From a virus: 25,976 nt of DNA. The notes under the pieces are model-generated. The model saw nothing but the letters and a program-made list of their open reading frames with translations. It made no database searches and had not been told where the DNA came from. The stretch lies in the IMG/VR virus record IMGVR_UViG_3300049855_000051, positions 1 through 25,976 of that record; one strand, written 5' to 3'. The position numbers were made by a program, and so were the translations under genes. Positions 6,805 through 25,976 of the stretch are shown in pieces. The first letter of the stretch is position 1. Each line of letters begins with the position of its first letter.

Positions 6805-9800
6805 TGGCCCGCACACCTACGAAGGTCACGGTAGACACGCCTGCCGCCGGCCCGATCAATGAAGCCTTCGCGCCTGTCCGCATCGACACGAACGAAGGCA
6901 TGTTCGGCGGCCAGCAGGCGCGTGCGCTCGGCGGGCTCGGCAATGCGCTGATCGAGACGGGCAGTATGCTGTCGCGTGAAGTGATCGCCGAGCAGCAGAT
7001 CAAGAACGAGACGGAAGCGACGAACGCGCAGAACGAATACCAGCAGGAAGCTGGGCGCCTTTGGGGCGAGTATTCCGCCCTGCAAGGCGAGGAAGCGGTG
7101 CGCGCATACCCGGCGTTCCAAGAGAACATGAGGCAGTTGCAGCGCCGCATGACGGAGAGTGCGACAAACCCCGTGGTGCGGCGGCAGTTGACGCGCAGCA
7201 TTGGCGGCAGCGCATCGTCCATGCTCGGGCAGGCGGCCGGAGTGAATGCGCGCAACGTGCGGACTGCCGGCGTGCAGGCGCAGGAAGGATCGAGCACGCT
7301 TGCGATCAACGAAGCGGTGCGCCAGCGCGACAACCCCCAGGCGGTGCAAGAGGCGCTGAACATCGGCCTGCAAGCCGTGCAGCGTGCCGGCGGCCTGACG
7401 GGCGCTGATCCCGACACGGTGGCGAGCAACGTGGCGGCGTATCGTGGACGCTTCTGGTCCGCCGTGATCGCCACGACTGCCGAGAACGATCCGCTGCGCG
7501 CGCAGCAGATGTTCGAGCAGAACCGCAACCAGATGGACGCGCAGGCGCAGATCAGGATCGAGAACTTCCTGCGCGCTCCGGTGCGTGACCGCCGCGCCGA
7601 CGACATCGTGCAATGGGCCACGGCGCCGCGTGGTCCGACGAACCCGGCGCCGCCGGGCGCTCCCGGCAATCGTCAGGGCGGCGTGCCGGCGGCTGCCGAT
7701 CCGAACGCCGTGCGTGATCAGGTGTCGCGCGCGGAAGGCGGCACCGATGCGGCAGGGCAGCCTATCCAGAACCGTCAAGGCAGCAGCGCGTTCGGCCCGC
7801 TGCAAGTCACGCGCGGCACGTGGAACGCCTACGCTGATCGCCTTGGGTTGCAGCGTGACGTGCAGGGGCAGCCGCCGCCTGCGAACCGTGGCGACCGCGA
7901 GACGCAGAACCGGATATGGGACTTGTATCAGGCCGATGCGCGCCAGCAGATCGGCCGCGACCTGACACCGCGCGAGCAATACACCGCATGGTTCCTGGGC
8001 ATCGCCGGGGCCAAGTCGTTCATCATGGCCGATCCGAACGCGGACGCATTCGCCACCTACAGCGCAGCGGCAGGACCGGACATCGCGGCGCAGGCGTTCC
8101 GTCAGAACGGCGCGCTGCTGCGCACCGGCATGACGGTGCAGCAGGCCACGACTGCGATTGGCGCCTACTTCGACAGGCATGGCGGGGGAGGCAATCCGCA
8201 AGCTGGCACCGGGCGGCCTGGGCGCGAGCAGCAGATGGGCGCTGCGCTCGAACGCGCGGGTTCCGATCCCGATCTTCGCGCGGCCGTGCTGTCCAGGCTC
8301 CGCCAGCAATGGGGGATCGAGGACACGATGAACTCGGCCGAGCGCAGCCGCATGGATCGCCGTGTGGAAGCTCTCGGGCAGGCATTGGCGCTCGGCACGT
8401 CCGCCTCGATCCCCGAAGCCGACATCCGGCGGCTGTATCAGCCCGAGCAGGCGCAGGCGATCCTTGACGGGCTCGCGACGCGGCAGATCGAAGGCGACGT
8501 GTTCCGCAGCGTGCAGCTTGCGACGCCGCAGCAGATTGTCGAGATGCAGCAGGACTTGGCTGACGGCAGCGGTCCGATCACGCGGCAGCTTCGCGAACGT
8601 CGCGGCGTGGCGGCGGGCGCGAACGGTGAAGTCGCGGAGGAAGATCGCCCCGGCGACGCCGTGGCACGGCAGCAGCTTGCGACCACGATGCAGCGCGCTG
8701 TCGAAGCGCGCGGCCAGCAGTTGCAGCGTGATCCTGCACAATACGTCATGGCTGATCCTGTCGTGCGTGCTGCCGCCCAGGCGCAGCAGGCAGACCCGAG
8801 CAATCCGGCGATGATGTCCGCCTACGTCGAAGCGACGCTGGCCGCCCAGGCACGTCTCGGCGTGGCGGAGCAGAACCGCCGCGTGCTGTCGGTGAACGTG
8901 GCGGCGGCCGAAGCGGCACGGCTCATGGGGAACGATCCGGGCGGCGGCACGGCGCAGAACCCGGACAACGCGGCGCTGCGGCTGCAAGCCATGCGCCGGC
9001 AATACGGCAGCGCGTGGCCCCAGGTGTTCGGCGATCTCGTGCGCGACGGGCGCCTGCCGCCGGAGTATCAGGTGCTCGCCAACATCCCCACGCCTGTCGG
9101 GCAGGCGGACTACCAGCGCACGCTGAACGGCATCCGCGCACGGGGCGGCCTTGAGCAGTTCGCTGCCGTGGTGCCGCGTGATCAGCGGCGCCTGATTGAC
9201 GACGGGCTGGATCGCGCCATCGAGCCGTTCCGGTCCGCTGCGACGGCAGGCCAGCAGACGGGCGGTGTCGAGCTTACCGGGCACATCCGCGACGCGGTGC
9301 GCAACCTGTCCTACTACTACGCCATCGGCGGCATGAGTGGCGCCGATGCGCTGCGCGCTGCGACGGACCGCATCTTCAACGACAAGTATGAGTTCAGCGG
9401 CACGATGCGTGTGCCGCGTCGTCTCGACAACGGGCAGGAAGTCGGCATCGCGCGCGTCAATCGCTCGGCTTCCGTCGTGCTGCGCGGGCTGCGGCCGGAG
9501 GACATGGCGGCGCCCGAGAGCATCGACCCTGCGCTGACGGAGGATGACCGCCGCCGCAACCTTTGGAACATCGCGCAGCGCGGCGTGTGGGTGCCCAATC
9601 AGGACGACACGGGGCTCGTGCTCATGGGCACGTGGGAGATGGGCGGGCGCGTGCCGGTGCGCCGTCGCGACGGCAGCATGATCGAGATGCGTTTCGACAA
9701 CCTGCCCGATGGGCAGACGACGATCCCTGGTGCGGGGCGTCGTGGTGGCAATCCGGGACAGCGCGCCGTGCAGCCCATCGAAGGATGGAACGAAGGGCCG

Positions 9801-9962
9801 GACGCGCCTGGGCAGGCTCCGCGCGCGCCGCAGCGGCCTGTCGGCGGTCCTGCGCCTGTCGAGCCCAATGCGCCTGTCGCCGGCACGCAGGCCACGCCCA
9901 GGCTGAACAGTCCGGCATCCCGTGGATCGGGGCGCTGGGTTGCGCCGGGAGTTGAACAATGA
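6804..9962 (+). CDS. Internal virion protein with lytic transglycosylase domain (gp15-position)
   Basis: 1052 aa. The ATG at 6804 shares one base with the previous TAA; the frame is open further upstream but only inside the gp14-like gene. The first ~290 residues are helical and Gln/Ala-rich, like T7 gp15-type core proteins. A lytic transglycosylase-like domain follows (~300-430): candidate catalytic Glu311 in SRAEGG, then SSAFGPLQVTRGTW (residues ~327-340), the family's GxxQ-type motif, and later TAWFLGIAGAKSFI. The rest is helical with a Pro-rich C-terminus. It would be ejected into the host envelope and open peptidoglycan for the DNA channel. In T7 the transglycosylase is on gp16, not gp15. 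The end overlaps the next gene by ATGA. Confidence 0.78.
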   Translation: MARTPTKVTVDTPAAGPINEAFAPVRIDTNEGMFGGQQARALGGLGNALIETGSMLSREVIAEQQIKNETEATNAQNEYQQEAGRLWGEYSALQGEEAVRAYPAFQENMRQLQRRMTESATNPVVRRQLTRSIGGSASSMLGQAAGVNARNVRTAGVQAQEGSSTLAINEAVRQRDNPQAVQEALNIGLQAVQRAGGLTGADPDTVASNVAAYRGRFWSAVIATTAENDPLRAQQMFEQNRNQMDAQAQIRIENFLRAPVRDRRADDIVQWATAPRGPTNPAPPGAPGNRQGGVPAAADPNAVRDQVSRAEGGTDAAGQPIQNRQGSSAFGPLQVTRGTWNAYADRLGLQRDVQGQPPPANRGDRETQNRIWDLYQADARQQIGRDLTPREQYTAWFLGIAGAKSFIMADPNADAFATYSAAAGPDIAAQAFRQNGALLRTGMTVQQATTAIGAYFDRHGGGGNPQAGTGRPGREQQMGAALERAGSDPDLRAAVLSRLRQQWGIEDTMNSAERSRMDRRVEALGQALALGTSASIPEADIRRLYQPEQAQAILDGLATRQIEGDVFRSVQLATPQQIVEMQQDLADGSGPITRQLRERRGVAAGANGEVAEEDRPGDAVARQQLATTMQRAVEARGQQLQRDPAQYVMADPVVRAAAQAQQADPSNPAMMSAYVEATLAAQARLGVAEQNRRVLSVNVAAAEAARLMGNDPGGGTAQNPDNAALRLQAMRRQYGSAWPQVFGDLVRDGRLPPEYQVLANIPTPVGQADYQRTLNGIRARGGLEQFAAVVPRDQRRLIDDGLDRAIEPFRSAATAGQQTGGVELTGHIRDAVRNLSYYYAIGGMSGADALRAATDRIFNDKYEFSGTMRVPRRLDNGQEVGIARVNRSASVVLRGLRPEDMAAPESIDPALTEDDRRRNLWNIAQRGVWVPNQDDTGLVLMGTWEMGGRVPVRRRDGSMIEMRFDNLPDGQTTIPGAGRRGGNPGQRAVQPIEGWNEGPDAPGQAPRAPQRPVGGPAPVEPNAPVAGTQATPRLNSPASRGSGRWVAPGVEQ

Positions 9963-11884
9963 GTGGCGTGAACGGCACCACCGGCTTCTTCACGCCGGGC
10001 GAGTTCGGCAACTCGGCGCTGGAAGCGCGAGGCAATGAGGCGCTTCCGTCCACGTTCGGCGAAGCCATGGGATCGCAGTTCAGTCAGGCATTCGCGGACA
10101 ACGTGACGACGCGGCTGGTGCGTCGCGTTGCCCGCAACTTCGACAGCAACGTGCTGGAAATGCCCGTCGAAGAACTGAACCGCGAGTTCGGTGTGCCCGG
10201 CCGCCTGACATTCGACACGCCGATGACGGAGCGGCAGGCGCGCGATCTCTACGAACACCACCGGGCGAACGCGCTGCGCGACGATGCGATCCGGCGCCGT
10301 GGCGACAACGTGGGCGGCGGCACGGGCGCCTCGATCTTGTCCGGCCTGCTGGTGGGCATCATCGACCCCCTGAACATCGCGTCCGCATTCATCCCCGTGG
10401 CGGGGCAGGCGAACATCGCGCGCGTGATCGGCACGAGCGCCGCGCGCGGTGCGCTGGGCCGCGCCACGGTGCGGGGGATCGAGGGCGCGCTGGGCGGCCT
10501 TGTCGGCGGCCTCGCCGTCGAGCCGCTGAACGCCTTCCTGACGATTGGCGACAAAGACGACTACACCATGACGCAGTTCATGGCGAACATCGCCATCGGC
10601 ACCGTGATCGGCGGCGCGCTGAACTCCGGCGTGGGCGCGCTGCGCGACAGGCGCGGGCTGCCGCCGTGGTCGCCCGAGATGCACGACGCAGGACGCACGC
10701 AGGCCATCGCGGCGCTGGCGGAGGGGCGGCCGGTGCAGGCCGCCCAAGCGATGGACTTCATCGCGTCGCGTGATGGCGGCGCGGAGCTTCGCCGCTGGTA
10801 TGACGGGCAGGTGAAGCAGGCGGCCGACGTGGACAACGCGCTCGACAATGCGCGCACACGCGAAGCCGCTGTCGATGCTGCCCGCACGCGGCTGGACGAA
10901 TTGCAGATGGAGGCGCGCAAGGTTCGCCTCGAACTCGATGAAGCGAACGGGCGGCTGTCCGCCTACGGCATCGAGCCCAGCACGCGCGAACGTCTGGACG
11001 ACATCGAAACCGAACTGGCCACGACGATCCCGAAGAAGCGGCGCGCTGATCTTGAGCGCGAGCGCACGATGCTGCTGGAAGGCCGCGATTGGGCGGCGGA
11101 GGCGCGCGCTGGCGGCGATCTGGAAGCCGGACGCACCGAAGCCGAGATCGCCGGCATCGGCGCCGTGGCGGACCGTCTGGCGCAGAAGGAAGCGATGGCT
11201 GCGCTGAACCTGACCGCTGCGCAGCGGCGGTTGCAGGCGGCCGAGACGACGCTTGAGCAGCGGCAGGCGACCTTCGCTGCGCGGCGCGACATGGTGCGCG
11301 ATCTCGCGATGCGCACGCTGCGTGGCGTCGCCTACAAGACTGGCGTGCAGATCGAGCAGCGCGAGTTGTGGGCAGCGGCGATGCGGATCATGCGCGCGGC
11401 TCCCGACGACGTGGATGCGACGATCCGCGCTGAACTCAAGACGATCACGGATCGCGCTGTCGGGCCGTTCCTGCCCGATCAGGTGATCATGCGCCCGCCG
11501 GCACGGAACGCGCAGCTTGAGGCGACGATGGGCGCGCTCGAACGCAACCTGTCGCGCAGCACCGACGATCTGACGAACGGTGTGCGAGGCGCCGCTGACG
11601 ACGTGAGCCCCGAGACGCGCGTGAACGACGCGGACATTGCGCGCGCCCCGAAGTTCGAGGGCACCGTGGACGAAGCGATTGCCGATCTCGACGCGAGCAC
11701 CGCCGATCTCGAACGCGCGCTCAAGGCGGAGGACGACGCCGTGGCGGCACGTGCGAAGCGCGAGGGGCGCGAACCCCCGCCGCGTGATCCCGAGATGGAC
11801 GAAGCGAACGCAATACGTGAAGAAGGGGCGAGCATGTCGCGCGCATACGAAGCGGCGGCGGTTTGCCAGATCGAGAGGCGCTGA
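9959..11884 (+). CDS. Internal virion / ejection protein with membrane-active segment
   Basis: 641 aa. The ATG at 9959 overlaps the previous stop, with GGAG seven bases upstream. Residues ~124-195 are rich in Gly/Ala and hydrophobic residues (LSGLLVGIIDPLNIASAFIP, FMANIAIGTVIGGALNSG). This fits the membrane-inserting parts of phage ejection proteins, where LSGLL..DPLN is a recurrent motif. Residues ~285-450 are a long charged coiled-coil-like region (RTRLDELQMEARKVRLELDE). The C-terminus is acidic and helical. By position and content it corresponds to part of T7 gp16. No enzymatic motif is visible. It would work with the 1052- and 825-aa proteins as the DNA conduit. Confidence 0.68.
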   Translation: MSGVNGTTGFFTPGEFGNSALEARGNEALPSTFGEAMGSQFSQAFADNVTTRLVRRVARNFDSNVLEMPVEELNREFGVPGRLTFDTPMTERQARDLYEHHRANALRDDAIRRRGDNVGGGTGASILSGLLVGIIDPLNIASAFIPVAGQANIARVIGTSAARGALGRATVRGIEGALGGLVGGLAVEPLNAFLTIGDKDDYTMTQFMANIAIGTVIGGALNSGVGALRDRRGLPPWSPEMHDAGRTQAIAALAEGRPVQAAQAMDFIASRDGGAELRRWYDGQVKQAADVDNALDNARTREAAVDAARTRLDELQMEARKVRLELDEANGRLSAYGIEPSTRERLDDIETELATTIPKKRRADLERERTMLLEGRDWAAEARAGGDLEAGRTEAEIAGIGAVADRLAQKEAMAALNLTAAQRRLQAAETTLEQRQATFAARRDMVRDLAMRTLRGVAYKTGVQIEQRELWAAAMRIMRAAPDDVDATIRAELKTITDRAVGPFLPDQVIMRPPARNAQLEATMGALERNLSRSTDDLTNGVRGAADDVSPETRVNDADIARAPKFEGTVDEAIADLDASTADLERALKAEDDAVAARAKREGREPPPRDPEMDEANAIREEGASMSRAYEAAAVCQIERR

Positions 11885-11886
11885 CA

Positions 11887-14364
11887 ATGGCCGTTCCTGC
11901 TGGATACCATCGCTGCATCACGGGCGTCCTTGAGGCGTCCGGCCGCAAGGACTTGAGCGAAGATGATCTCACCGCGATCTTCACGCGCGTTAACGGGCGG
12001 ATCAACCGGCATCTGCGCGCCGGCCTGAACCCCACCGAAGCCGCGTATCAGGCGGGCCGCGAACTCGGCGCCGAGATGAAGCTGGCGGCGGCCATCGAGC
12101 GCCGCAGCCGCCTGATCAACATCGCGCGCAAGCGTGAGATCATGAACGCGCTGCGCCCCGGTAAGGAAGCCGTCGATCTGCGCAAGGTGCTGAACCGCGT
12201 GGACAGCAACATCTACAGCGCCCAGGCCGACGTGCTCGGGCCGCTGGTGAAAGAGATGCGCAGCGCCGGGCTCTTGAAGGTGATCGCAAGCGGCGACCGT
12301 GCGTTCGAGCAGCGCGTGATTGACGAATTGTGGAGCATCGAGAGTGGCACGCCCGGCACCACGGGCGACAAGCTCGCGCGCGAGGCGGCGGAGATCATCA
12401 ACCGCGCGCAAGAGCGCGTGCGTGCGATGCAGAACAGCGCGGGCGCCTACATCGGAAAGCTCGACCATTACGTGACGCGGCAGGCGCACGACATGGACAA
12501 GATCAGGGGCACGATCAAAGGCGCTGACGGGAAGTATGACGCCAATGCGAACTACGCAAAGTGGCGTGATGACATCCTGCCGCGTCTCGATGAACGCACC
12601 TTCGACAATCTGGACGATCAGACGCCGGAGAGCATCGAGAAGTTCATGCGCTCGGTGTGGAACGCGCTCGCTACCGGCGTGCATGAAACGTCGCGCGGCC
12701 GGGAACTGCTGGCGGGCTTCACGGGACCGGCGAACCTTGCGCGCCGCGTCAGCGAAGAACGCAAGCTGATCTTCAAGGACAGCGCGTCCTGGGGCGAGTA
12801 TCAGCGCAGCTATGGGCAGGGCACGCTATGGGAGACGATCCAGCGCGGGCTCGACACCGGGGCGCGCAATGCAGCGATCATGCGCGGCATGGGCACGAAC
12901 CCCGAAGCGATGTTCGAGGGCGTCGTGGCCACGGCGTTGAAGAACGCTGTCGAGCGCAGCGACGTGAAGGCGGCTGACGCGCTCGGCGGGAAGTTCAACG
13001 CGCGCATTCTCGACACGATCACCGGCAAGGCGAACATCCCCGGCAACGACACCTTCTCGAACATCGCGCGCACGGCGATGGTGGTGCAGACGCTTTCCAA
13101 GCTCGGCGGCGTGGTGCTGTCGTCGCTGCCTGATCTCGCCAACAATGCGGCCGTGCTGCGGCACAACGGCGTGGGGTTGTTCGAGAGCTACGCGAACCAG
13201 ATCACATCCCTGTTCCCGAAGAACGCGGCGGGCCGCGAGGCGATGATGACGCTTGGCGTAGGCGTCGATGCCATGATGGGCCGCGTCGCGTCGCGCTTCT
13301 CGACCGCCGAAGGGCTGCGCGGCAAGTCGGCCAAGATTGTCGATACCTTCCACCGGCTGAACCTGCTGAACTTCTGGACCGACAGCTTGAAATACGGCAT
13401 GGGCTCGATGCTGACGCACAACCTGGGCCGCATCGCAGGCAAGAGCTTCGACGCGCTCGATCCCCGCCTGCGCGCGACGCTGGCGCGCTACGACATCACG
13501 GCCGCTGATTGGGATGTGGCGCGTGCCACGGCAGCGAAAGGCGCGGATGGTGTCGAGCGCGTCTTGCCGGCGGAGATGGCGGATAGCGCGTCGCGCACGA
13601 AGTTCCAGAACTACCTGATTGATCAGATCAGGGAGGCGATGAACGAGCCGGACGCGGTGTCTCGAACCGTCGTGACCGGCGGCCTCGCGGCGAACACGGC
13701 GACGGGCATGGCGATGCGCGTGCTCATGCAGTTCAAGACGTATCCGATCACCTTCATCAACCGCACGCTCGGCCGCGAGGGACTGAACCCCTTCGCGGAC
13801 AACTTCATGAAGGGCGGCGCGAACGGCATGGACGCGATGGGCATTGCGCACCTTGTCGTCGCCACGTCGCTGCTGGGCTACGCATCGCTCGAATTGAAGA
13901 ACCTTGCGCGCGGCAAGAACACGCAGACATCGGACGCGGAAAACCAGAAGGCATACGCCGCGCTGGTGGCGCGCGCGATGGTGCAGGGCGGCGGCCTGGG
14001 GCTGCTGGGCGACTTCCTGTTTGGCGAGCCGAAGAACACCGGCAGCGGCTTCTTCACCGGCCTGTTGGCAGGGCCGACTGTCGGCACGTTCGATGAACTC
14101 GGGAAGGAAATCCAGAACCTACTGCTTTGGGCGCGCTCGGGTGACGAACGCGCGCTGAAAGACGCGCGCTCGGGAGCCATCGGCCTGATCAGGAACAACG
14201 CGCCGTTCATCAACATGTTCTATACGCGCTGGGCAGCCGACTACTTCATCTGGTATAGGCTGCAAGAGGCGGCCAATCCGGGCTACCTGCAACGCTATGA
14301 GGACAGGGTGCGCCGAGAGCAGCACCAGACCTTTTGGCTGCGCCCTTCTGACGCCGCGAGGTAG
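11887..14364 (+). CDS. Large internal virion protein (T7 gp16 C-terminal-like)
   Basis: 825 aa. I chose the ATG at 11887 (MAVPAGYHR), two bases after the previous stop with GAGAGG upstream. An upstream in-frame TTG lies inside the previous gene. The protein is largely helical. The segment MRVLMQFKTYPITFINRTLG (residues ~609-628) matches a hallmark of the C-terminal part of gp16-like ejection proteins, where an (M)QFK-(S/T)-(F/Y)P element recurs. It is followed by hydrophobic, glycine-rich helices (GLGLLGDFLFGE, FFTGLLAGPTVG) that could contact membrane. The end is Arg/Glu-rich. It most likely forms the inner-membrane part of the ejection channel. Confidence 0.75.
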   Translation: MAVPAGYHRCITGVLEASGRKDLSEDDLTAIFTRVNGRINRHLRAGLNPTEAAYQAGRELGAEMKLAAAIERRSRLINIARKREIMNALRPGKEAVDLRKVLNRVDSNIYSAQADVLGPLVKEMRSAGLLKVIASGDRAFEQRVIDELWSIESGTPGTTGDKLAREAAEIINRAQERVRAMQNSAGAYIGKLDHYVTRQAHDMDKIRGTIKGADGKYDANANYAKWRDDILPRLDERTFDNLDDQTPESIEKFMRSVWNALATGVHETSRGRELLAGFTGPANLARRVSEERKLIFKDSASWGEYQRSYGQGTLWETIQRGLDTGARNAAIMRGMGTNPEAMFEGVVATALKNAVERSDVKAADALGGKFNARILDTITGKANIPGNDTFSNIARTAMVVQTLSKLGGVVLSSLPDLANNAAVLRHNGVGLFESYANQITSLFPKNAAGREAMMTLGVGVDAMMGRVASRFSTAEGLRGKSAKIVDTFHRLNLLNFWTDSLKYGMGSMLTHNLGRIAGKSFDALDPRLRATLARYDITAADWDVARATAAKGADGVERVLPAEMADSASRTKFQNYLIDQIREAMNEPDAVSRTVVTGGLAANTATGMAMRVLMQFKTYPITFINRTLGREGLNPFADNFMKGGANGMDAMGIAHLVVATSLLGYASLELKNLARGKNTQTSDAENQKAYAALVARAMVQGGGLGLLGDFLFGEPKNTGSGFFTGLLAGPTVGTFDELGKEIQNLLLWARSGDERALKDARSGAIGLIRNNAPFINMFYTRWAADYFIWYRLQEAANPGYLQRYEDRVRREQHQTFWLRPSDAAR

Positions 14365-18214: not shown

Positions 18215-18344
18215 CTTCTGCCTGACGGCGCGGCCGATCTACACGGCGGCCGAGGATCGCATCTCGGCCGAGACGGCGCGTGCCGTCCTGGCACACAATG
18301 AGACGGGCGCCCGCTTGTGCGGATGGCTGCCCCTCCGCGAGTAG
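18153..18344 (+). CDS. o-spanin (Rz1-like outer-membrane lipoprotein)
   Basis: 63 aa from the ATG at 18153 (MALRLVPLILLASC), with GAGGA a few bases upstream. An earlier in-frame ATG at 18135 would add six polar residues before the signal and is less likely. The lipobox LLAS-C places the lipidated Cys at residue 14 after a short Arg-plus-hydrophobic signal. The mature part carries the recurrent phage motif ARPI...D..S.ETAR..L.HNETGARLCGW, with two more cysteines (23 and 56). Its first 62 bases overlap the i-spanin gene in a different frame. It is the partner of the i-spanin and the last gene of the rightward cluster. Confidence 0.78.
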   Translation: MALRLVPLILLASCSAGGGGSFCLTARPIYTAAEDRISAETARAVLAHNETGARLCGWLPLRE

Positions 18345-18378
18345 CCCACGCTGATCCTGGCAGCAGGGGTGAACGGCG

Positions 18379-18413
18379 AGGCGGTGCTGCGTTCCGGCGG
18401 CACCGCCTTTCTC
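18379..18413 (+). terminator. Rho-independent terminator of the late operon
   Basis: AGGCGGTGC (18379-18387) pairs perfectly with GCACCGCCT (18400-18408). The stem extends by T-G, G-C and C-G to 12 pairs around a GTTCCG loop (18391-18396), then TTTCTC follows. The T-rich side is on the plus strand, so it stops rightward transcription 35 bases after the o-spanin stop. It abuts the end of the convergent helicase gene at 18412. No T tract is seen on the minus-strand side. The rest of the 67-base gap holds nothing recognisable. Confidence 0.82.
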
Positions 18414-20412
18414 ATTGCAGCGTGACCATCCACGTGCCGTTCAACTCGACGCACGACACCAGGGAGCCGTCAGGTAGCGTCACCGGCTGGGCGAGGAACG
18501 CCTGGATGCGCTGCCGCACCACGTCGGCCTTCATCTGCCCGAACAACGGCTCGGACGCGCGCAGCAGCGCCGCAGCGTCCTTCAACGCAATGCCGCCCTT
18601 GCCCGTCGTGCTGGTCATCCCGACGTAGAGCGCACGTGCGATGGCCTGCCGCGTCGCTTCGGTGCGCGCGTGCATGTCGGCTCGATCCAAGCCGCCGACT
18701 TCCTCGCCGTTCCACAACCGCACGGGCACCTTGCGCAGCCAAAGCGTTTCGTCCGTGGCGAGCGTCCTGTTCATCTTGGCGTCGTCCATGCGGAGATACA
18801 TGCGGCGTTCCTGCCCTGTCAGGCCGAAGCGCGTGGCATCTTCATCGCTCGGCGCCATGAGCGTCATCATGATGCGCGAGCTATCCCTGACGGCGCTGGC
18901 ACCCTGCGCAGCGTCCGGGGAGCCGGCGTAGTTCGCGCTGCTGGCAAGGTTCGGCTTGCTGGTATGGTGCGACACCATCATGGCCACGTCGGTCAACTCG
19001 GCAAGCGTCTCGATCTGTTCCATCACGAACGTCATGGCGATGTTGTCGATGCCGTTGACGGTGTGCAGCTTGTTCAGGGGATCGAGCCCCAGCAACGCCA
19101 CGTCGGGATCGCGGGCCGCGTCGATCAGCAGCCTGAACGCTTCTTCGTTGATGCTGGGTTGCTGGCCGCCCACCACGAGCCGCAGCTTGAGATGCGTCTT
19201 GCCCGAGATCAGCATGATGCGCGGGATGACAAGGTTCGCGTCGATGTTCAGCGCGGTGCATAGGGCGTAGAGCCGCATGGACATTTCGTCCAGGCTGTCC
19301 TCTGCGTTGTAGATGATCGACTTCCACCAGCGCCCGTCTGCGTTCTCGAAACCGAACATGTCCTTGCCTGCCGCGAGGAACACCGCCGTCATCAACTGCA
19401 CGAGCGACTTACCCACACCGCCGGGGGCAATGAGGGTAGTGATCTCCCGCCGCAGCAGCAGGCGCCGCAGCACCCACGGACGCGGCTTGAGCGCGGCCAG
19501 GGCGGTCGCATTGCCGAAGGTGAAGGCGCCCGTCTGCAAGGCCACGGCGCGCTCGGGCGTGGGCAGCAGATCGGGGATTGGCGGGATCACGATGCCGCTG
19601 AACAAAACGTCCGGATGCTTCGCGCCGCTGGCATTTTGTGCATACTGGTAGGCGTTCGCGATGCGCACGTTCAGATCGTCACCGACGACATTGGACTGCG
19701 CGCCCCAGGCCGCCATGAGACTGCGGCACATGTGCTCGCTTATGCCGTAGTCGCGCACCTTGCACGCAAGCTCATAGGCACGCTGCGAACGCTCCCCGTC
19801 GATGGCGGCAGGCGTGGCGGCGATGGCCTGCACCGCGAGCGACACGGCGCGAGGATCATCTTCGTCCACCAGCGTCGCCTGGGCGTTCGCTGCGCGCTCT
19901 CCCGGCGGCTTGCAGCGGGCCACGACTTCACGGGGCGCCTGGGCAAGCGGCTGGTCAATCTCGACGGTGTAGGGGCGCCCCTCAATCGTGCTGCCGGGCG
20001 CGAGCACGTAGCCGTGGTGGCTGCGGATGTCGAGCCCGGTGCCGAGCGCGCCCTGGTTCAGCGCGACGTTCGCGCCCGTGTAGTAGAGATGGTAGCCGCC
20101 GCTGGGCGTGCGCACCATCAACGTCTCGAACCCACCGTAGACCTGCATCCACGACGCCATGCCGTCCTTGCCCGGCTTAGTGTCGATGTCCACCACCACC
20201 ATGTCAGTCGTCAGCACGCCGATGTTGAACTCGTGCGCACCCCACCACGAACGGATCGTGGCTTCGTCAGCGGTGGCCCATTCGGTCCACCCCTCCCATA
20301 CAGGCTTCTTTGCGCGACGCTCGTTTCCCTCTTTGCCCGGTTCGTCAGGCAAGCATGGGAACACACGAAAGCCACGCCGCGCCCATTGGACAGCGGCATC
20401 GACTTTCATCAT
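18412..20412 (-). CDS. Prim-Pol primase fused to RepA-type (AAA_25) helicase
   Basis: 666 aa, starting at the first of two adjacent ATGs, one base after the upstream stop (coupled). Residues ~1-170 are a bifunctional primase-polymerase domain: DID metal motif (Asp75, Asp77), TPSGGYHLYY with His108, and GLDIRSHHGYVLAPGS (126-141). Residues ~305-560 are a RecA-like ATPase: Walker A APGGVGKS (329-336), YNAED with Glu371, Walker B-like ALLGLDPLN with Asp444, and VSHHTSK (480-486), as in RepA-type hexameric helicases. It would unwind phage DNA and make primers, doing the job of T7 gp4 with unrelated domains. The C-terminal ~100 residues are unassigned. Confidence 0.88.
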   Translation of the reverse strand: MMKVDAAVQWARRGFRVFPCLPDEPGKEGNERRAKKPVWEGWTEWATADEATIRSWWGAHEFNIGVLTTDMVVVDIDTKPGKDGMASWMQVYGGFETLMVRTPSGGYHLYYTGANVALNQGALGTGLDIRSHHGYVLAPGSTIEGRPYTVEIDQPLAQAPREVVARCKPPGERAANAQATLVDEDDPRAVSLAVQAIAATPAAIDGERSQRAYELACKVRDYGISEHMCRSLMAAWGAQSNVVGDDLNVRIANAYQYAQNASGAKHPDVLFSGIVIPPIPDLLPTPERAVALQTGAFTFGNATALAALKPRPWVLRRLLLRREITTLIAPGGVGKSLVQLMTAVFLAAGKDMFGFENADGRWWKSIIYNAEDSLDEMSMRLYALCTALNIDANLVIPRIMLISGKTHLKLRLVVGGQQPSINEEAFRLLIDAARDPDVALLGLDPLNKLHTVNGIDNIAMTFVMEQIETLAELTDVAMMVSHHTSKPNLASSANYAGSPDAAQGASAVRDSSRIMMTLMAPSDEDATRFGLTGQERRMYLRMDDAKMNRTLATDETLWLRKVPVRLWNGEEVGGLDRADMHARTEATRQAIARALYVGMTSTTGKGGIALKDAAALLRASEPLFGQMKADVVRQRIQAFLAQPVTLPDGSLVSCVELNGTWMVTLQ

Positions 20413-20413
20413 G

Positions 20414-20710
20414 TCAGCGACGCACCGCCTTGCGGCCGTGAACCTTTCTCGGCGCAGCGTGGATGGGATAGACGCGGTAGGTGCGCCGTGCCTTTCCAGG
20501 CCGAACGATGTAGCCGAACTCGGCGAGCTTCACGTTCATGCGCGAGATGTGCGCGCCGACAGCCTGCTGCCGCTGCGTCGGGTTGCGCTTGTCGCTGTAG
20601 AGGCGCTTGAACATGTCCTCGATCAGCACATCATCGCCCAGGCGCAGCAGCGCGAAGATCACATCCTGCATCGGGGATAGCTGCTTCCGCAGCTTGGCTT
20701 CACCCTTCAT
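20414..20710 (-). CDS. Small winged-helix DNA-binding protein
   Basis: 98 aa. The ATG has GGAAG upstream and starts three bases after the polymerase stop. AVGAHISRMNVKLAEFGYIV (residues ~50-69) followed by PGKARRTYRVYPI looks like a recognition helix and wing, similar in layout to OmpR-type C-terminal domains. The C-terminus is very basic (PRKVHGRKAVRR). Position between polymerase and primase-helicase suggests origin binding, helicase loading or control of the operon, but this is inference. No known phage regulator is recognised with certainty. Confidence 0.62.
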   Translation of the reverse strand: MKGEAKLRKQLSPMQDVIFALLRLGDDVLIEDMFKRLYSDKRNPTQRQQAVGAHISRMNVKLAEFGYIVRPGKARRTYRVYPIHAAPRKVHGRKAVRR

Positions 20711-20713
20711 GGT

Positions 20714-23062
20714 TCACTTCCCGTATCTCGAACCTTCCCACCCTTTGGAGGCGAGAGGGCATCCAGGCAGCCATGCCGGATTGGTTGCGAAGATCGTCTC
20801 GAACTCTTTGGCCGAGCCGTAGTTGTGACCGACTTCTGCCACGGCTTCGTCGTGGCAATGGAACACGATGGGGTATTCAGCAGCTTCCAGGCGCAGCATC
20901 CCCTCCGTCAGCACGTCACGCGCCGAGCCCTGGTCAACGTGGTTGAACTGCATCCCGCCGTAGAGGCTGAACGAACCCCAACGCTTCTTCTCCCCTTCGT
21001 AGCCGTCGTAGTCCACCTTCTTCCGTGTCTTGACCATCAGCTTGCCGCCACGCCACGACGCCTCTTGCGTCCACGCGGCGCGGTGTTCTTCTTGGAAGTC
21101 CTCGATCACGAAGTTCGGCCGCCCGTCATCGAACTCGATCCACGCTTCGGTGCGATACGAGATGCGAGGGCGGCAGTAGGCGAGCACGCGGCCACTCGGC
21201 AGGCGGCACCATAGGAAGCCGCGCGTCGAGAGATAGGCGACCTTACCGCCCATGACGAACACGATCTGGTCCGGCGTGCTGACGGCTTCGATTGCTGCGT
21301 CCTGTAAATCCCACCAGCATTGCACCAGCTTCGGATGCGCGCCGCGCCAGCCTGCGACGATGATCTTGATCGCGGTCCACTGATCCTGGGGCAGCTTGTG
21401 CTTGTCGCGCGCGCTGGGGTAGCGCGCCCACGTCGTCAGCCATTCCAGTTCGTTCGTCGCCTCGCGCACGGGCTGCACCAGATCGGCGGGCTTCAATCCG
21501 TAGTTCTTGCCCATGTTGATGAAGCTGCCCACGCTGCCCTGGTAGCCGAGCGCGAGTTCTTCCACCTTGCCGATCTGGCGCTGCTGCTTCGTGACAGTCG
21601 AGACATCGACACCAAAGCTGCGCGAATACGCCACGTTGTAGAGATCAGGACCGTTGCCGCTGTCGTAGAGCCGGAAGGCGTCGAGCTTCCATTCTTCTTC
21701 GGCCAGCCACGCGGCGATGCGCCCTTCGATGTTCGAGAGATCGGCGCCGACGAACTTCTTCCCGTGGTCCGCGATGAACATCCCGCGCAGCGACTTGGCG
21801 AGGCATTCCATCGGCGGCCCAACAAGCGTTTCCAGCATGAAATGCGCTTCGTCCGCGACGGCGTGCTGCAACAGTATCTCGATGGTGCGGCGGATGCTGT
21901 CACCGTCGCGGTCCGGATCGACGCGATACAGGTTGTGCGGCTGTATCAGGCGGCCCGCGTAGCGGCCGGTGCTGGTGCCGTGGTAGTTGAACAGGCCACG
22001 CGCGCGGCCATCGCTGCACGCGCAGTCGAGCATGGCGCCGAGCTTCGCCGTGGATGTCTTGTTCGCCTGCTTGCGCAGCGCCATCGCACGGCGCACGGCG
22101 TTCGGCAGTTCGCTCTCCGCCAGCATGAACTCAAGATCGTCATCGAGTTCTTCATCGGCGGCCAGCAACACCGCTTCCTGCTGATCCTTCGCGATGCTCT
22201 TGCATTCGATGCCGAGCCCGTTGATCCACGTCACCAGCTTCAACGTCATCGTGCATTTCGGCACGGCGCCATCGGTGACGCGCTTCATCTCGACATCGAG
22301 CTTCTTCTTCGCAAGCTCGCGCAGTTCGATGGCGCGCTTCACGAGCGGGATGTCGATCTTGATGCCTCGATCATTCACCGTCTGATCGTGTATCCAGATC
22401 GCGCGTTCAGTCGCGGAAAGCTCCGGCGCCAGCGCGTCGATCTCGCATTCTGTCACCACGTCCTGGGCGCAGTAGAGCATGTTGCGCTCGACGTTCTCGG
22501 GCTGATCCCACCACGTATATGTCTCGCCCGTGCCTTCGCAGTAGTGGCACATCATGTCACCAGCGCCGCCCCCGCCATAGCACGCCGCGCACACCTTGCG
22601 CGAGCGCGGCCGTGCCATCTTCATCATGAGCGCGTGCCCGTCCATGTCCTTCGCGGCCTGGGCGCCGAGCACCTTGGCAGCGATCTCAAGGCTGGACGGG
22701 ATCGAGATCGCGGCGCAGCGCGCCATCGTGCAATCTTGTTGTTCGATGCGCAGCACCGGCCAGTGACGCAGCCCGTAGCGCCAGCGCAGCAGCCAGTTCC
22801 AGACGGTGCGCTCGAATATCGCGTTGTGCGCTACGACGATGCCGCCATTCCTGATCCAATCCAGCAGCATGACCGGATCGGCATCGCCGGGGCGCCACAA
22901 CTTCATATCATCGCGTGTCGGCTTGGAATGCTTCGGCGCAATGCACCAGCGGAAACCCCACGTCCGCGTGCTGGCGTGCTCCATCTGCTTGTGGACGCCG
23001 GCCCGCTTCAACTCGACGGCTGAACCAGTCTCAAAGTCAACGTGCGCCGCCCAGGTTTCCAT
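20714..23062 (-). CDS. Family A DNA polymerase with 3'-5' exonuclease and zinc-finger-like insertion
   Basis: 782 aa from the ATG at 23062 (METWAAHVDFETG), AGG four bases upstream. A longer frame from 23122 overlaps the small upstream ORF and is rejected. Exonuclease motifs: DFE (Asp9, Glu11), AHNAIFE near 78-84, and YCAQD with Tyr197/Asp201. Between motifs II and III are two CxxC pairs (Cys158, 161, 172, 175) in a Gly-rich segment ending CEGTG. Polymerase motifs: A as ADLSNIEGRIAAWL, B as GKVEELALGYQGSVGSF, C as HCHDEAV (735-741). The ALGYQG form of motif B is typical of phage PolA enzymes found with DUF2815/DUF2800 rather than of T7 gp5. It replicates the phage genome. Confidence 0.92.
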   Translation of the reverse strand: METWAAHVDFETGSAVELKRAGVHKQMEHASTRTWGFRWCIAPKHSKPTRDDMKLWRPGDADPVMLLDWIRNGGIVVAHNAIFERTVWNWLLRWRYGLRHWPVLRIEQQDCTMARCAAISIPSSLEIAAKVLGAQAAKDMDGHALMMKMARPRSRKVCAACYGGGGAGDMMCHYCEGTGETYTWWDQPENVERNMLYCAQDVVTECEIDALAPELSATERAIWIHDQTVNDRGIKIDIPLVKRAIELRELAKKKLDVEMKRVTDGAVPKCTMTLKLVTWINGLGIECKSIAKDQQEAVLLAADEELDDDLEFMLAESELPNAVRRAMALRKQANKTSTAKLGAMLDCACSDGRARGLFNYHGTSTGRYAGRLIQPHNLYRVDPDRDGDSIRRTIEILLQHAVADEAHFMLETLVGPPMECLAKSLRGMFIADHGKKFVGADLSNIEGRIAAWLAEEEWKLDAFRLYDSGNGPDLYNVAYSRSFGVDVSTVTKQQRQIGKVEELALGYQGSVGSFINMGKNYGLKPADLVQPVREATNELEWLTTWARYPSARDKHKLPQDQWTAIKIIVAGWRGAHPKLVQCWWDLQDAAIEAVSTPDQIVFVMGGKVAYLSTRGFLWCRLPSGRVLAYCRPRISYRTEAWIEFDDGRPNFVIEDFQEEHRAAWTQEASWRGGKLMVKTRKKVDYDGYEGEKKRWGSFSLYGGMQFNHVDQGSARDVLTEGMLRLEAAEYPIVFHCHDEAVAEVGHNYGSAKEFETIFATNPAWLPGCPLASKGWEGSRYGK

Positions 23063-23067
23063 GATGC

Positions 23068-23184
23068 CTATCCGAATACGATCCACCCCACGAGCGTCCA
23101 GAACGAAACGCCCAATCCGCACCCCACGATGATGCCGCGCACGGGGGCAAGTTCGTCCTCATGCGCGGCATCGTCAGGTATCAC
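23068..23184 (-). CDS. 38-aa single-TM protein (unrecognised small gene)
   Basis: Starts at a GTG overlapping the DUF2815 stop (GTGA) and ends at TAG, five bases before the polymerase ATG. The product is an acidic N-terminus (MIPDDAAHEDELAPVRG) then one hydrophobic helix (~17-37, IIVGCGLGVSFWTLVGWIVF). The layout, an acidic head, LAPVRG and a TM helix, matches short membrane ORFs I recall from other phage replication regions. It fills the gap between its neighbours almost exactly, which supports a real, coupled gene. Function unknown; it could tether replication proteins to the membrane or act on host membrane proteins. No strong ribosome site precedes it. Confidence 0.66.
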   Translation of the reverse strand: MIPDDAAHEDELAPVRGIIVGCGLGVSFWTLVGWIVFG

Positions 23185-24029
23185 CGCAGCATCGCTTCCA
23201 TGTCGAAGGCGGGCGCAGCGGCGGCAGGCGGTGCCGGCGGCGGCATGAGAGGCACCACGCCGGGCATCGGCGGCGGGCCGCCCACGATCTGCGGCGGCGG
23301 CATGAACGCCGCACCGGGAGGCATGGGCGGGGAGCCCGGCGGCATCGGCGCCCCCGTGCCAAACGCCGCAGCGGCATCGAAGCGGGCTTCGACGTTGACG
23401 CCACTGAACGCCTGCTTGAGATCGGGGCCGCCGCCCGACAGCACGTCATCGTCGGCGATCAACATGACGCCTTGCAGCCCCAGGCCGACACCGGACTTCT
23501 TGTTGTCGAAGGTGTAGAGATTGAACAGGATCACCGCCCAGGCGCCCGCGTAGATGCGCCGTTCGTCCACCACCGGGTTGCCCAGGTTGTCCACGACCTG
23601 GGGCTTGTATTCGGTGACGAACTGCATGGACGGCAGGCCGGGCGTCATGCCGTTGTGAAGCTGCCCGGACTTGCGCGAGATGCGCTCGCCCTGGTCACGC
23701 CACGGCACGTGCAGGCCGATGGGCGCACCGTTCGGGGCGAAGCGCGTGGGCCATTTTTCCTTCATCTTCGCGTAGACATCCGGCCACACGACGGCGTTGA
23801 TCTGGTCCTGCGATCCCGGCGGGCAAAGCGCCGACACTTCGTAGCGCGGCTTGGCCGCCGGGGTGCCGTCGTCGTTCTTCCGGTCCGGGTTCGGCGTGAT
23901 CAGATGCACGAACGCCATGCGCACGGGGCATGTGCGGAAGTTGCCGTCCGGGTTCTTCGTGAAGGGCGCGGACTGGACGGCGCGAGCCACCCAATCGTCC
24001 GGCATACGCGAGGCTTTCATGATGGGCAT
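23181..24029 (-). CDS. DUF2815-family single-stranded DNA-binding protein
   Basis: 282 aa. The ATG at 24029 has GGAG nine bases upstream; the second Met (residue 4) lacks its own site. The core fits DUF2815, an OB-fold-like ssDNA-binding family: YEVSALCPPGS (63-73), AVVWPDVYAKMKEKWP (79-94), then RIYAGAWAVILFNLYTFDN (158-176) and GVGLGLQGVMLIAD (180-193). Residues ~226-275 are a Pro/Met/Gly-rich low-complexity tail with PPGSPPMPPGA-type repeats, replacing the acidic tail of cellular SSBs. It would coat single strands during replication and recombination. Context with PolA and DUF2800 is the standard one for this family. Confidence 0.85.
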   Translation of the reverse strand: MPIMKASRMPDDWVARAVQSAPFTKNPDGNFRTCPVRMAFVHLITPNPDRKNDDGTPAAKPRYEVSALCPPGSQDQINAVVWPDVYAKMKEKWPTRFAPNGAPIGLHVPWRDQGERISRKSGQLHNGMTPGLPSMQFVTEYKPQVVDNLGNPVVDERRIYAGAWAVILFNLYTFDNKKSGVGLGLQGVMLIADDDVLSGGGPDLKQAFSGVNVEARFDAAAAFGTGAPMPPGSPPMPPGAAFMPPPQIVGGPPPMPGVVPLMPPPAPPAAAAPAFDMEAMLR

Positions 24030-24044
24030 TGGTGTGATCTCCGT

Positions 24045-24314
24045 TCAGTTCCAGGGGGTGACGGGGCGCGCGACGCTGCGCACGAGACGCATGAACGCCG
24101 TCTCGAACTCGGTGCGCGCGATGGCGACGTTCCGCCTGCGCTCGGCGATCTCGCTGTCATAGCGATCTTCGTGCGCGGGCGGCCCGATCAGCGCCGACAC
24201 CTTGCGGTGCAGTTCGGCGGTCGCCTTCTCGTGCGCCTTGATCTCGTTCATCACGTCGATCTCGGCCTGCGTGAGATCACGATAGCCCGTGATCTTCTGG
24301 TGCTGGTTGTCCAC
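24045..24314 (-). CDS. Acb2/Tad1-type hairpin protein, putative cyclic-nucleotide sponge (anti-CBASS/Thoeris)
   Basis: 89 aa with a GTG start at 24314; GGAGG lies five bases upstream, inside the end of the previous gene. The pattern NQHQKITGYRDL, then EIDVMNEIK, and near the end TEFETAFMRLVRSVARP, matches the Acb2/Tad1 hairpin family of small phage proteins. These sequester signal nucleotides made by CBASS (Acb2) or Thoeris (Tad1) immunity. Tyr11 and Lys26, which I recall as cyclic-dinucleotide contacts in Pseudomonas phage PaMx33 Acb2, are at the same positions here. The middle (residues ~50-65, PPAHEDRYDSEIAERR) is more variable. Expression with the replication genes would give early protection. 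Family membership is fairly secure; which nucleotide it binds is not. Confidence 0.8.
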   Translation of the reverse strand: MDNQHQKITGYRDLTQAEIDVMNEIKAHEKATAELHRKVSALIGPPAHEDRYDSEIAERRRNVAIARTEFETAFMRLVRSVARPVTPWN

Positions 24315-24315
24315 T

Positions 24316-24492
24316 TTAGCCTCCGGTTTGTGTTGCGTCCACGACCGCCTGCGTGTCGGCGGTGCGAGGCTCGGGCTTCGGCGCAGCAGGCACGTATTTC
24401 GTGACTGCTGCCCAGGCGCGGCGCGAAGCAGCGTATGCCGCCTGCTTCGCTTCTGCGTCCGCGATGAACGCCTTGCGATCTTCGGCGGTCAT
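24316..24492 (-). CDS. 58-aa protein of unknown function
   Basis: The ATG at 24492 overlaps the stop of the DUF2800 gene (ATGA). The TAA ends one base before the GTG of the Acb2-like gene. The first 32 residues form a charged, Ala-rich helix (MTAEDRKAFIADAEAKQAAY), followed by a Pro/Thr-rich tail (YVPAAPKPEPRTADTQ). No family is recognised. Tight coupling on both sides supports a real gene. The tail end of its coding sequence contains the GGAGG for the next gene. Confidence 0.7.
   Translation of the reverse strand: MTAEDRKAFIADAEAKQAAYAASRRAWAAVTKYVPAAPKPEPRTADTQAVVDATQTGG
24320..24324 (-). promoter_or_regulatory. Ribosome binding site fixing the GTG start of the Acb2-like gene
   Basis: GGAGG followed by CTAAA and then GTG at 24314. 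It is a perfect Shine-Dalgarno at five-base spacing and the only good start signal for this frame. It lies within the final codons of the 58-aa gene. Confidence 0.8.
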
Positions 24493-25727
24493 GTCGGTGG
24501 CGCCGGCAGCGTCAGGCCAGCGAAGCCCGACGTGATGCGGTTCACGGCGGGCCGCGTGTCGCTCATGTGGGCGAGCACGAGATTGCCGCTGCTGGCGCGA
24601 GGCGTCAAGAATGCGAGCCGTTCGAGGATGTCCTTCGCGGCCTGCCGCTGCGATCCGGGCGGCGCGTATTTCGTCGCCACTTCCGTCAGCATGGCTTCGA
24701 CCTTCGTGACGCCCAGCAGCTTCTTCTCGGTGAAGTCGTCGGGCTCAAGCACGCCGCCCGTCAGCGCCGACAGGGCGGCGGCCGTGCCGTCCACGTCGTC
24801 CGGGAAGCTGCGCCGCGCCTGGGCCGCCACCAGCTTGTGCTCGGGCACCGGCTGCCCTTCCATAGCACGACGTAGCGCCTCGCGATCCGCTGCGTTCAGC
24901 CACGCGCGCAGTTCGTCGCCGTGGCGCAGGATGTAGGCGAGCCGGTCCATGCCAAGCTCGACCACGGGCGGTAGCGGGAGCCCTTCGACTTGCTCGATGG
25001 CGGTGGCGTAGGGCTCGATCACGGACACCGCCTGACGCTCGCGCGCAGGGCACGTCAGTTCGCATTCGCAGAAGCGGCAATGCGTGCCGGGCGTCAGCGC
25101 GCCGCCGGGGCTCTCGGCCGCTGCGATGGCGGCGACGGTGCTGGCGTGAAACTCCGCCATCTCGACGGCGCCCACGATGTCGGTGCGCACCGGATCGGCG
25201 CCGTGTCCGTTCGGCTGGATGACGACAAGGTTCAGCTTGCGGATGGGCTGCGCCCACCACTTCGCGACCGAGTTGAACAGCAGTTGCGGGTTGCGACGCT
25301 CGTTCACGTAGACGTGCCCGAACTTGTATTCGACAGCCCACCCTTCGCATTCGATGTGATCGAACACCATGAGATCGGCGATGCCGGCCGCGTCATCTTG
25401 GGGCACCACGTCCTGGGGGAACACGACACGTTCCTCGACGTAGGTAACGAGATGCGGACCGTGCGAGATGTAGAGCCCTTCAAGGAAGTCCAGCACCATC
25501 TCGGCGCCACGGATCATATCCTTCGTCGCGGCGAAGCGGTCCTGCGCCATGCGCATCCCGCCCTTGATCGCGTAGGCAAGGAACTCGTGAGCTTCCGTGC
25601 CTTCGTCGGCCGCCTCACTCGCGACGCGCGGTGTGCGCGCCGCGAGTGCGACGTAGCCGGCGCACGCGCGAACCCGATGGATGCGGCTGCTGCCGTATTT
25701 GGCGTGCTGTCGATCCACGTGGTTCAT
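24489..25727 (-). CDS. DUF2800-family PD-(D/E)XK nuclease, probably with Fe-S cluster
   Basis: 412 aa. The ATG at 25727 has GGAGG eight bases upstream. The N-terminal GSSRIHRVRACAGYV and DEGTEAHEFL (41-50) are typical of DUF2800, a RecB/Cas4-like nuclease family. Likely catalytic residues are Asp118 (GIADLMVF) and Glu133-x-Lys135 (AVEYKFG), with Gln148 downstream. Cys22 plus Cys217, 220 and 226 (HCRFCECELTCPARE) are spaced like the four ligands of a 4Fe-4S cluster in AddB/Cas4-type nucleases. It probably acts as a DNA exonuclease in phage recombination or end processing together with DUF2815 protein. The C-terminal ~170 residues are helical. It ends with an ATGA overlap to the 58-aa gene. Confidence 0.82.
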   Translation of the reverse strand: MNHVDRQHAKYGSSRIHRVRACAGYVALAARTPRVASEAADEGTEAHEFLAYAIKGGMRMAQDRFAATKDMIRGAEMVLDFLEGLYISHGPHLVTYVEERVVFPQDVVPQDDAAGIADLMVFDHIECEGWAVEYKFGHVYVNERRNPQLLFNSVAKWWAQPIRKLNLVVIQPNGHGADPVRTDIVGAVEMAEFHASTVAAIAAAESPGGALTPGTHCRFCECELTCPARERQAVSVIEPYATAIEQVEGLPLPPVVELGMDRLAYILRHGDELRAWLNAADREALRRAMEGQPVPEHKLVAAQARRSFPDDVDGTAAALSALTGGVLEPDDFTEKKLLGVTKVEAMLTEVATKYAPPGSQRQAAKDILERLAFLTPRASSGNLVLAHMSDTRPAVNRITSGFAGLTLPAPPT

Positions 25728-25752
25728 CGCGTGCGCCTCCCTGGTCCGCCGA

Positions 25753-25976
25753 TCAGGCGGCCGTCGCTTCGGCGTAGACCTGCGGCCAAAGCGCCGGGTT
25801 GATGCCCGTCACGGACTTGACGCCATACTTGGCGAGCAGCGCGGCGACGGCGGCCGGACCGCCCTTCGCGGCGTTCGCGCCAAGCGCCTGCAAGGCGCCC
25901 GTGATGTGCGCCAGCGTCCAGCCCGGCGGGGCTTCGCCCTGGGGCGCGGCGACCGGGGCGGCCACGGGAGCCGGCG
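25753..25976 (-). CDS. C-terminal part of an Ala-rich phage replication-region protein (partial)
   Basis: The frame is open to the window edge, so a GTG at 25965 is not taken as the start. The visible ~74 residues begin with a Pro/Ala linker (PAPVAAPVAAPQGEAPPGW). A small helical domain follows, with AAKGGPAAVAALLAKYGVKS and then INPALWPQVYAEATAA to the stop. This domain (A..G..AV.ALL.KYGV.SV..L.P) recurs at the C-termini of small phage proteins encoded near DUF2815/DUF2800 genes, sometimes mislabelled after eukaryotic Rrp5. Function is unknown. It is first in the visible part of the leftward operon, 25 bases before the DUF2800 start. Confidence 0.65.
   Translation of the reverse strand, partial: PAPVAAPVAAPQGEAPPGWTLAHITGALQALGANAAKGGPAAVAALLAKYGVKSVTGINPALWPQVYAEATAA

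Follow-up and report, generated by a model that had tools for sequence, protein, structure and literature searches.

A probable Acb2-family nucleotide sponge gene in a variable slot of a phage replication cluster

Gene neighborhood

The window analyzed here, 25,976 bases of DNA, is the entire linear IMG/VR record IMGVR_UViG_3300049855_000051 and probably represents a fragment of a phage genome. Its minus strand harbors a compact replication cluster (Table 1), in which the genes for an exonuclease, a 58-aa protein, an 89-aa Acb2 homolog, an SSB, a family A polymerase, a 98-aa protein and a primase/helicase follow each other in this order, with successive gaps of -4, 1, 15, 58, 3 and 1 bases. 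The 89-aa product, the subject of this study, begins MDNQHQKITGYRDLTQAEIDVMNEIK and ends TAFMRLVRSVARPVTPWN; its full translation reads MDNQHQKITGYRDLTQAEIDVMNEIKAHEKATAELHRKVSALIGPPAHEDRYDSEIAERRRNVAIARTEFETAFMRLVRSVARPVTPWN.

The open reading frame is coding: it is preceded by a GGAGG ribosome-binding site, and its G+C content by codon position (0.64/0.42/0.90) follows the pattern of the neighboring exonuclease, SSB and polymerase genes. An earlier note on this DNA had named no strand for the gene, and on the plus strand the same coordinates yield an unrelated frame. In the minus-strand product, all three motifs quoted there (NQHQKITGYR, MNEIK and FMRLVRSVARP) are found, and Tyr11, Arg12 and Lys26 carry the numbers that they had been given.

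Table 1. Features of the replication cluster in the window and of the corresponding slot in sister phages
Feature	Position	Strand	Remarks
Exonuclease, DUF2800 / PHROG 69	24489..25727	minus	PF10926, 124 bits; phrog_69, 165.6 bits; upstream of acb2
58-aa ORF between exonuclease and acb2	24316..24492	minus	shares 4 bases with the exonuclease end; 1-base gap to acb2
GGAGG ribosome-binding site of acb2	24320..24324	minus	directly upstream of start, GGAGGCTAAA-GTG
acb2 homolog, 89 aa	24045..24314	minus	GTG start at 24314-24312, stop at 24045
N-terminal segment, residues 1-26	24237..24314	minus	Tyr11 and Lys26 as predicted cyclic-dinucleotide contacts; neither varies across the 23-sequence alignment, and they align with T4 Y8 and K23
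Second hairpin helix, residues 54-81	24072..24155	minus	predicted helix; Thr68 and Arg79 conserved, Arg61 near-invariant
Enc34/Gp2.5-like SSB	23181..24029	minus	PF10991, 70.6 bits; phrog_112; downstream of acb2
Family A DNA polymerase	20714..23122	minus	PF00476, 46.9 bits; phrog_17, 279.8 bits
98-aa ORF of replication cluster	20414..20710	minus	same place in several sister phages; tblastn matches to L093, L094, L095, L098, L100
Primase-polymerase / AAA helicase	18412..20412	minus	PF09250, 104.2 bits; PF13481, 80.1 bits
~100-aa slot family	L093:about 7868-8191; L094:about 2232-2497; L095:about 7496-7795		motif [VM]F[MV]L..RD.QAP
65-aa intact ORF, Acb2 hairpin	L095:7792-7986 (IMGVR_UViG_3300033076_000881)		start overlaps preceding stop (ATGA)

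The gene thus lies inside the replication cluster, as had been claimed, co-directional with the exonuclease and SSB genes on either side. Searches of positions 18300-25976 returned neither a terminator-like site on the minus strand nor, on plus or minus strand, a sigma-70-like promoter. Early expression from the same transcript as the polymerase had also been proposed. Of these two points, the shared transcript stands in part, for the co-directional order, the tight spacing and the lack of a minus-strand terminator-like site make it likely that acb2 is co-transcribed with the replication genes, and the early timing is conjectural.

Family membership and predicted fold

Against the Pfam profile PF24729 (Acb2_Tad1_hairpin), the acb2 product scores 62.3 bits (E = 5e-17), more than twice the cut-off of 27 bits, and covers the profile from end to end (positions 1-58 of 58), whereas 0 of 14 control genomes contained this domain. 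The match is far above chance and bears out the earlier claim that the protein belongs to the Acb2/Tad1 hairpin family. The product also matches PHROG 717, to which no function is assigned. In the PDB, a single-sequence phmmer search retrieved solely Acb2 p26 (8ixz, 8h2j; E = 6.4e-11), and a profile of seven sequences retrieved p26 (1.2e-28) and T4 Vs.4 (7uq2; 5.8e-7). NCBIfam gave no match for the acb2 product, PADLOC models matched neither it nor five neighboring ORFs, and a search for the cGAS-related domain AGS_C (PF18134) elsewhere in the record found none.

The AlphaFold2 monomer, modeled from a 23-sequence alignment with a mean pLDDT of 85.1, consists of a short N-terminal helix and a long helical hairpin (helices at residues 4-9, 16-43 and 54-81), the same architecture as published for Acb2 (PMC12043709; PMC10419184); residues 1-10 are modeled with low confidence (mean pLDDT 57). 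A helical-hairpin fold had been set beforehand as a test of the family claim, and the predicted fold agrees with it: in a Foldseek search of the PDB, ranks 1-8 are taken up by Acb2 chains alone, at a probability of 1.00 and with TM-scores of 0.65-0.72 by query length, among them the 3'3'-cGAMP complex 8h2j and the cGAMP-bound T4 Vs.4 structure 7uq2, and at rank 9 the probability drops to 0.38. BFVD yielded a single weak match without a name. Based on sequence and model, we confidently assign the protein to the Acb2 family, which is already known.

Given that PF24729 is common to Acb2 and Tad1, the protein might instead be a Tad1-like sponge, whose main job would be to capture gcADPR and thereby block Thoeris, which the earlier note had listed as a possible target. 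Tad1, however, carries an N-terminal antiparallel β-sheet (β1-β4) ahead of its two helices and binds gcADPR, a ligand reported for Tad1 and Tad2, whereas Acb2 is a bare hairpin and takes cyclic di- and trinucleotides (PMC12043709). The window protein, with its 89 residues and its all-helical model, lacks this β-sheet domain, and the above-background matches in the sequence and fold searches of the PDB are Acb2 chains only, with no Tad1 among them. We therefore regard a Tad1-like role as highly improbable and reject the Thoeris reading because of the architecture. For a bare hairpin of this kind, the expected target would be CBASS, perhaps including cA3-using systems.

Ligand-pocket residues

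In the crystal structure of T4 Vs.4, an Acb2 hexamer holds three cGAMP molecules; base stacking is provided by Y8 and F82, polar contacts by Y8, H11, K23 and R79, and a helix cap by T12, and L29, A66, A73 and A77 are located at hexamer interfaces (PMC10097602). The substitution T68M weakens binding (PMC12657230). For 3'3'-cGAMP, the Kd of T4 Acb2 is about 31 nM. Despite an identity of just 25% and the lack of a DNQHQK segment in T4, the two proteins share their fold and can be aligned at these sites: T4 Y8, T12, K23, A66, T68, A73 and R79 correspond to Y11, T15, K26, A66, T68, A73 and R79 in the window protein. By this alignment, the cyclic-dinucleotide contact set (T4 Y8, K23 and R79, together with T68) is conserved throughout, as are the interface positions A66 and A73, and the earlier suggestion that Tyr11 and Lys26 occupy contact positions agrees with the roles of Y8 and K23 in the crystal structure (PMC10097602).

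The window protein departs from T4 at H11, which is replaced by L14, and at the stacking residue F82, the loss of which cuts binding more than 25-fold and which is replaced by A82. The second homolog of known structure, p26/gp24 of the Pseudomonas phages PaMx35, PaMx33 and PaP2 (PDB 8h2j, 8h2x, 8ixz), has identical residues at both positions and has been co-crystallized with 3'3'-cGAMP. As F82 is an alanine in p26 too, it is not a defining feature of the family. The window protein is 39% identical to p26 and matches its fold with a Foldseek probability of 1.00. Both share the N-terminus DNQH.KI.GYRDL, with Y11, R12 and K26 identical, and window T68, R79 and P84 correspond to p26 T74, R85 and P90. 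They differ in the hairpin loop, which is shorter in the window protein, in N62, which is W68 in p26, and in the C-terminus (...RPVTPWN compared with ...QPDSF). No variation is seen at Y11, R12, K26, R79, A82 or P84 across the 23-sequence alignment, and hardly any at R61.

Some of these differences could be taken to indicate an Acb2 homolog whose ligand range has narrowed or shifted, for instance to trinucleotides only, and which would thereby escape decoys such as Panoptes, which penalize sponges for cyclic dinucleotides. Such a reading can draw on Trp88 near the C-terminus (Phe in most relatives), on the shorter loop and Asn62, on a sister phage, L095, that entirely lacks the dinucleotide-binding N-terminus (see below), and on the natural loss-of-function alleles of acb2 in T2 and in PaMx41, where a premature stop interrupts the gene and for which Panoptes has been proposed as the selective force (PMC12657218). 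We nevertheless consider it very unlikely, given that the dinucleotide-contact residues common to p26 and T4 Acb2 are intact in the window protein. A further argument, namely that residue 12 is Arg where the earlier note had expected Asn, fails. Arg12 is present in p26, to which the PaMx35 protein (L092, reading GYRDL) is identical over the aligned part, and it is invariant in our alignment; being the family norm, it gives no basis for a shift in ligand range and was dropped as a sign of one.

Relatives and their gene neighborhoods

Relatives of the protein occur in 223 records of the named-phage collection, all with less than 60% identity and mostly from Vibrio and Pseudomonas phages, and in viral contigs 290 candidate stretches encode them; genome contigs scanned with the acb2 product contained none. 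The closest named-phage relatives are the Acb2 homologs of the Pseudomonas phages MR5-MR7, annotated as 'NAD/FAD-utilizing enzyme', which share 51% identity with the window protein over 99% of its length. These phages, however, are Autographiviridae and carry acb2 at the late genome end after the lysis genes, as opposed to the replication genes of the window.

Two relatives of acb2 are interrupted, one by a premature stop (L064:6001-6078, 25 aa) and one by a frameshift (L007:7998-8330), much as PaMx41 is by its reported stop; these interruptions may reflect either genuine losses or errors of assembly. Moreover, in MT104468.1 (L009:5998-6228) and other Pseudomonas phages, GenBank describes Acb2 homologs as 'NAD/FAD-utilizing enzyme apparently involved in cell division'; this description seems to be an annotation error.

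The location between exonuclease and SSB genes might suggest a small helical protein that serves replication or recombination, for instance as a partner of either neighbor, and that resembles Acb2 in fold alone. Acb2 genes in recombination or replication clusters are also found in L058, where acb2 adjoins a Cas4-type exonuclease and a helicase and a Sak4-like protein is encoded immediately upstream, and in PaMx35, where it ends a polymerase-primase-MazG cluster instead of lying inside it as in the window (exo-58aa-acb2-SSB-PolA). The placement is therefore recurrent, is shared with phages from which Acb2 was first described, and is not new. Yet the likeness to Acb2 extends beyond the fold to the sequence of the ligand-binding segment, most sister phages that keep the exo-SSB-PolA-primase order have no acb2 in this place, and elsewhere acb2 adjoins integrase, PAPS reductase or methyltransferase genes, or lies near late genes. 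Of the readings considered here, we regard a role as replication partner as the most improbable.

Variation of the exonuclease-SSB slot

The sister phages were recruited from viral contigs by polymerase and primase queries; scans of the same contigs with the exonuclease or the SSB as single query gave no match. They keep the exo-SSB-PolA-primase order and differ in what lies between the first two genes. In L096-L100 and L107-L109 this slot is empty, with about 40-70 bases between exonuclease and SSB as judged from the aligned ends. In L093 and L094 it is occupied by one ORF of ~100 aa that is unrelated to Acb2, and in L095 by an ORF of the same kind followed by a 65-aa Acb2-hairpin ORF. The ~100-aa family has no match in Pfam and no significant one in PHROG, and is possibly another small accessory or anti-defense gene. 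The 58-aa ORF of the window, for which family searches returned no significant match, shows no evident kinship to it.

The 65-aa ORF resembles the window protein from about residue 21 on (tblastn 6e-9, hmmsearch 1.8e-8), and both have RTEFE.AFMRL.R.V..P..PW in common. It scores 21.6 bits against PF24729, which is under the cut-off, and possesses neither the DNQH.KITGYRDL segment nor Lys26; a search for the missing N-terminus in other frames upstream found it absent. A search for further hairpin-only relatives in viral contigs recovered L095 itself alone, and in the phage collection its matches were all weak (lowest E 0.07) and chiefly involved Acb2 homologs of the usual form. In the simplest reading of these sequences, which is suggestive only, acb2 entered the slot in an ancestor shared by L095 and the window phage, and then lost its binding segment in L095. 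As the short form stems from one contig, we take a decaying gene as the default view. Within this phage lineage, the slot holds the Acb2 hairpin in two forms, full-length in the window and shortened in L095. The short form is the one unusual lead among these phages, although it is rather unlikely to be a functional derivative with a new role, be it as a trinucleotide-only sponge, a decoy or a partner subunit. If it were functional, selection for it might have come from decoy systems directed against dinucleotide sponges.

As a separate observation, the family A polymerase gene of L095 is split (9001-12469): a stop follows the exonuclease part, the remainder lies in another frame, and the ~1.2 kb between the parts hold an open frame of 418 aa that contains the DPPY motif of DNA methyltransferases.

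Proposed function and significance

We propose that the gene product is a nucleotide sponge of the Acb2 family directed against CBASS, a reading to which we assign a probability of about 0.88 and in which ligand binding is inferred. During infection, the 89-aa protein would be expected to form a hexamer of helical hairpins, in which N-terminal segments, paired and carrying Tyr11 and Lys26, would combine with the second helix (Arg79 and the Thr68 region) into pockets for the cyclic dinucleotides that CBASS cyclases of the host produce. With these sequestered, CBASS effectors would stay inactive, and the cell would survive long enough for the phage to replicate. Like p26, the protein probably has another site that takes cyclic trinucleotides. 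The gene itself may have been acquired as an accessory in the variable slot between the exonuclease and SSB genes.

Since the family, its mechanism and this kind of gene placement are already known, the interest of the finding is only modest, and the known mechanism of Acb2 is unchanged by it. What it adds is an uncultivated phage lineage among the carriers of Acb2, and a case in which acb2 is swapped in and out at one fixed place of an otherwise conserved replication cluster. With another unannotated family in the same place in L093, L094 and L095, the exonuclease-SSB slot may yield further small anti-defense genes.
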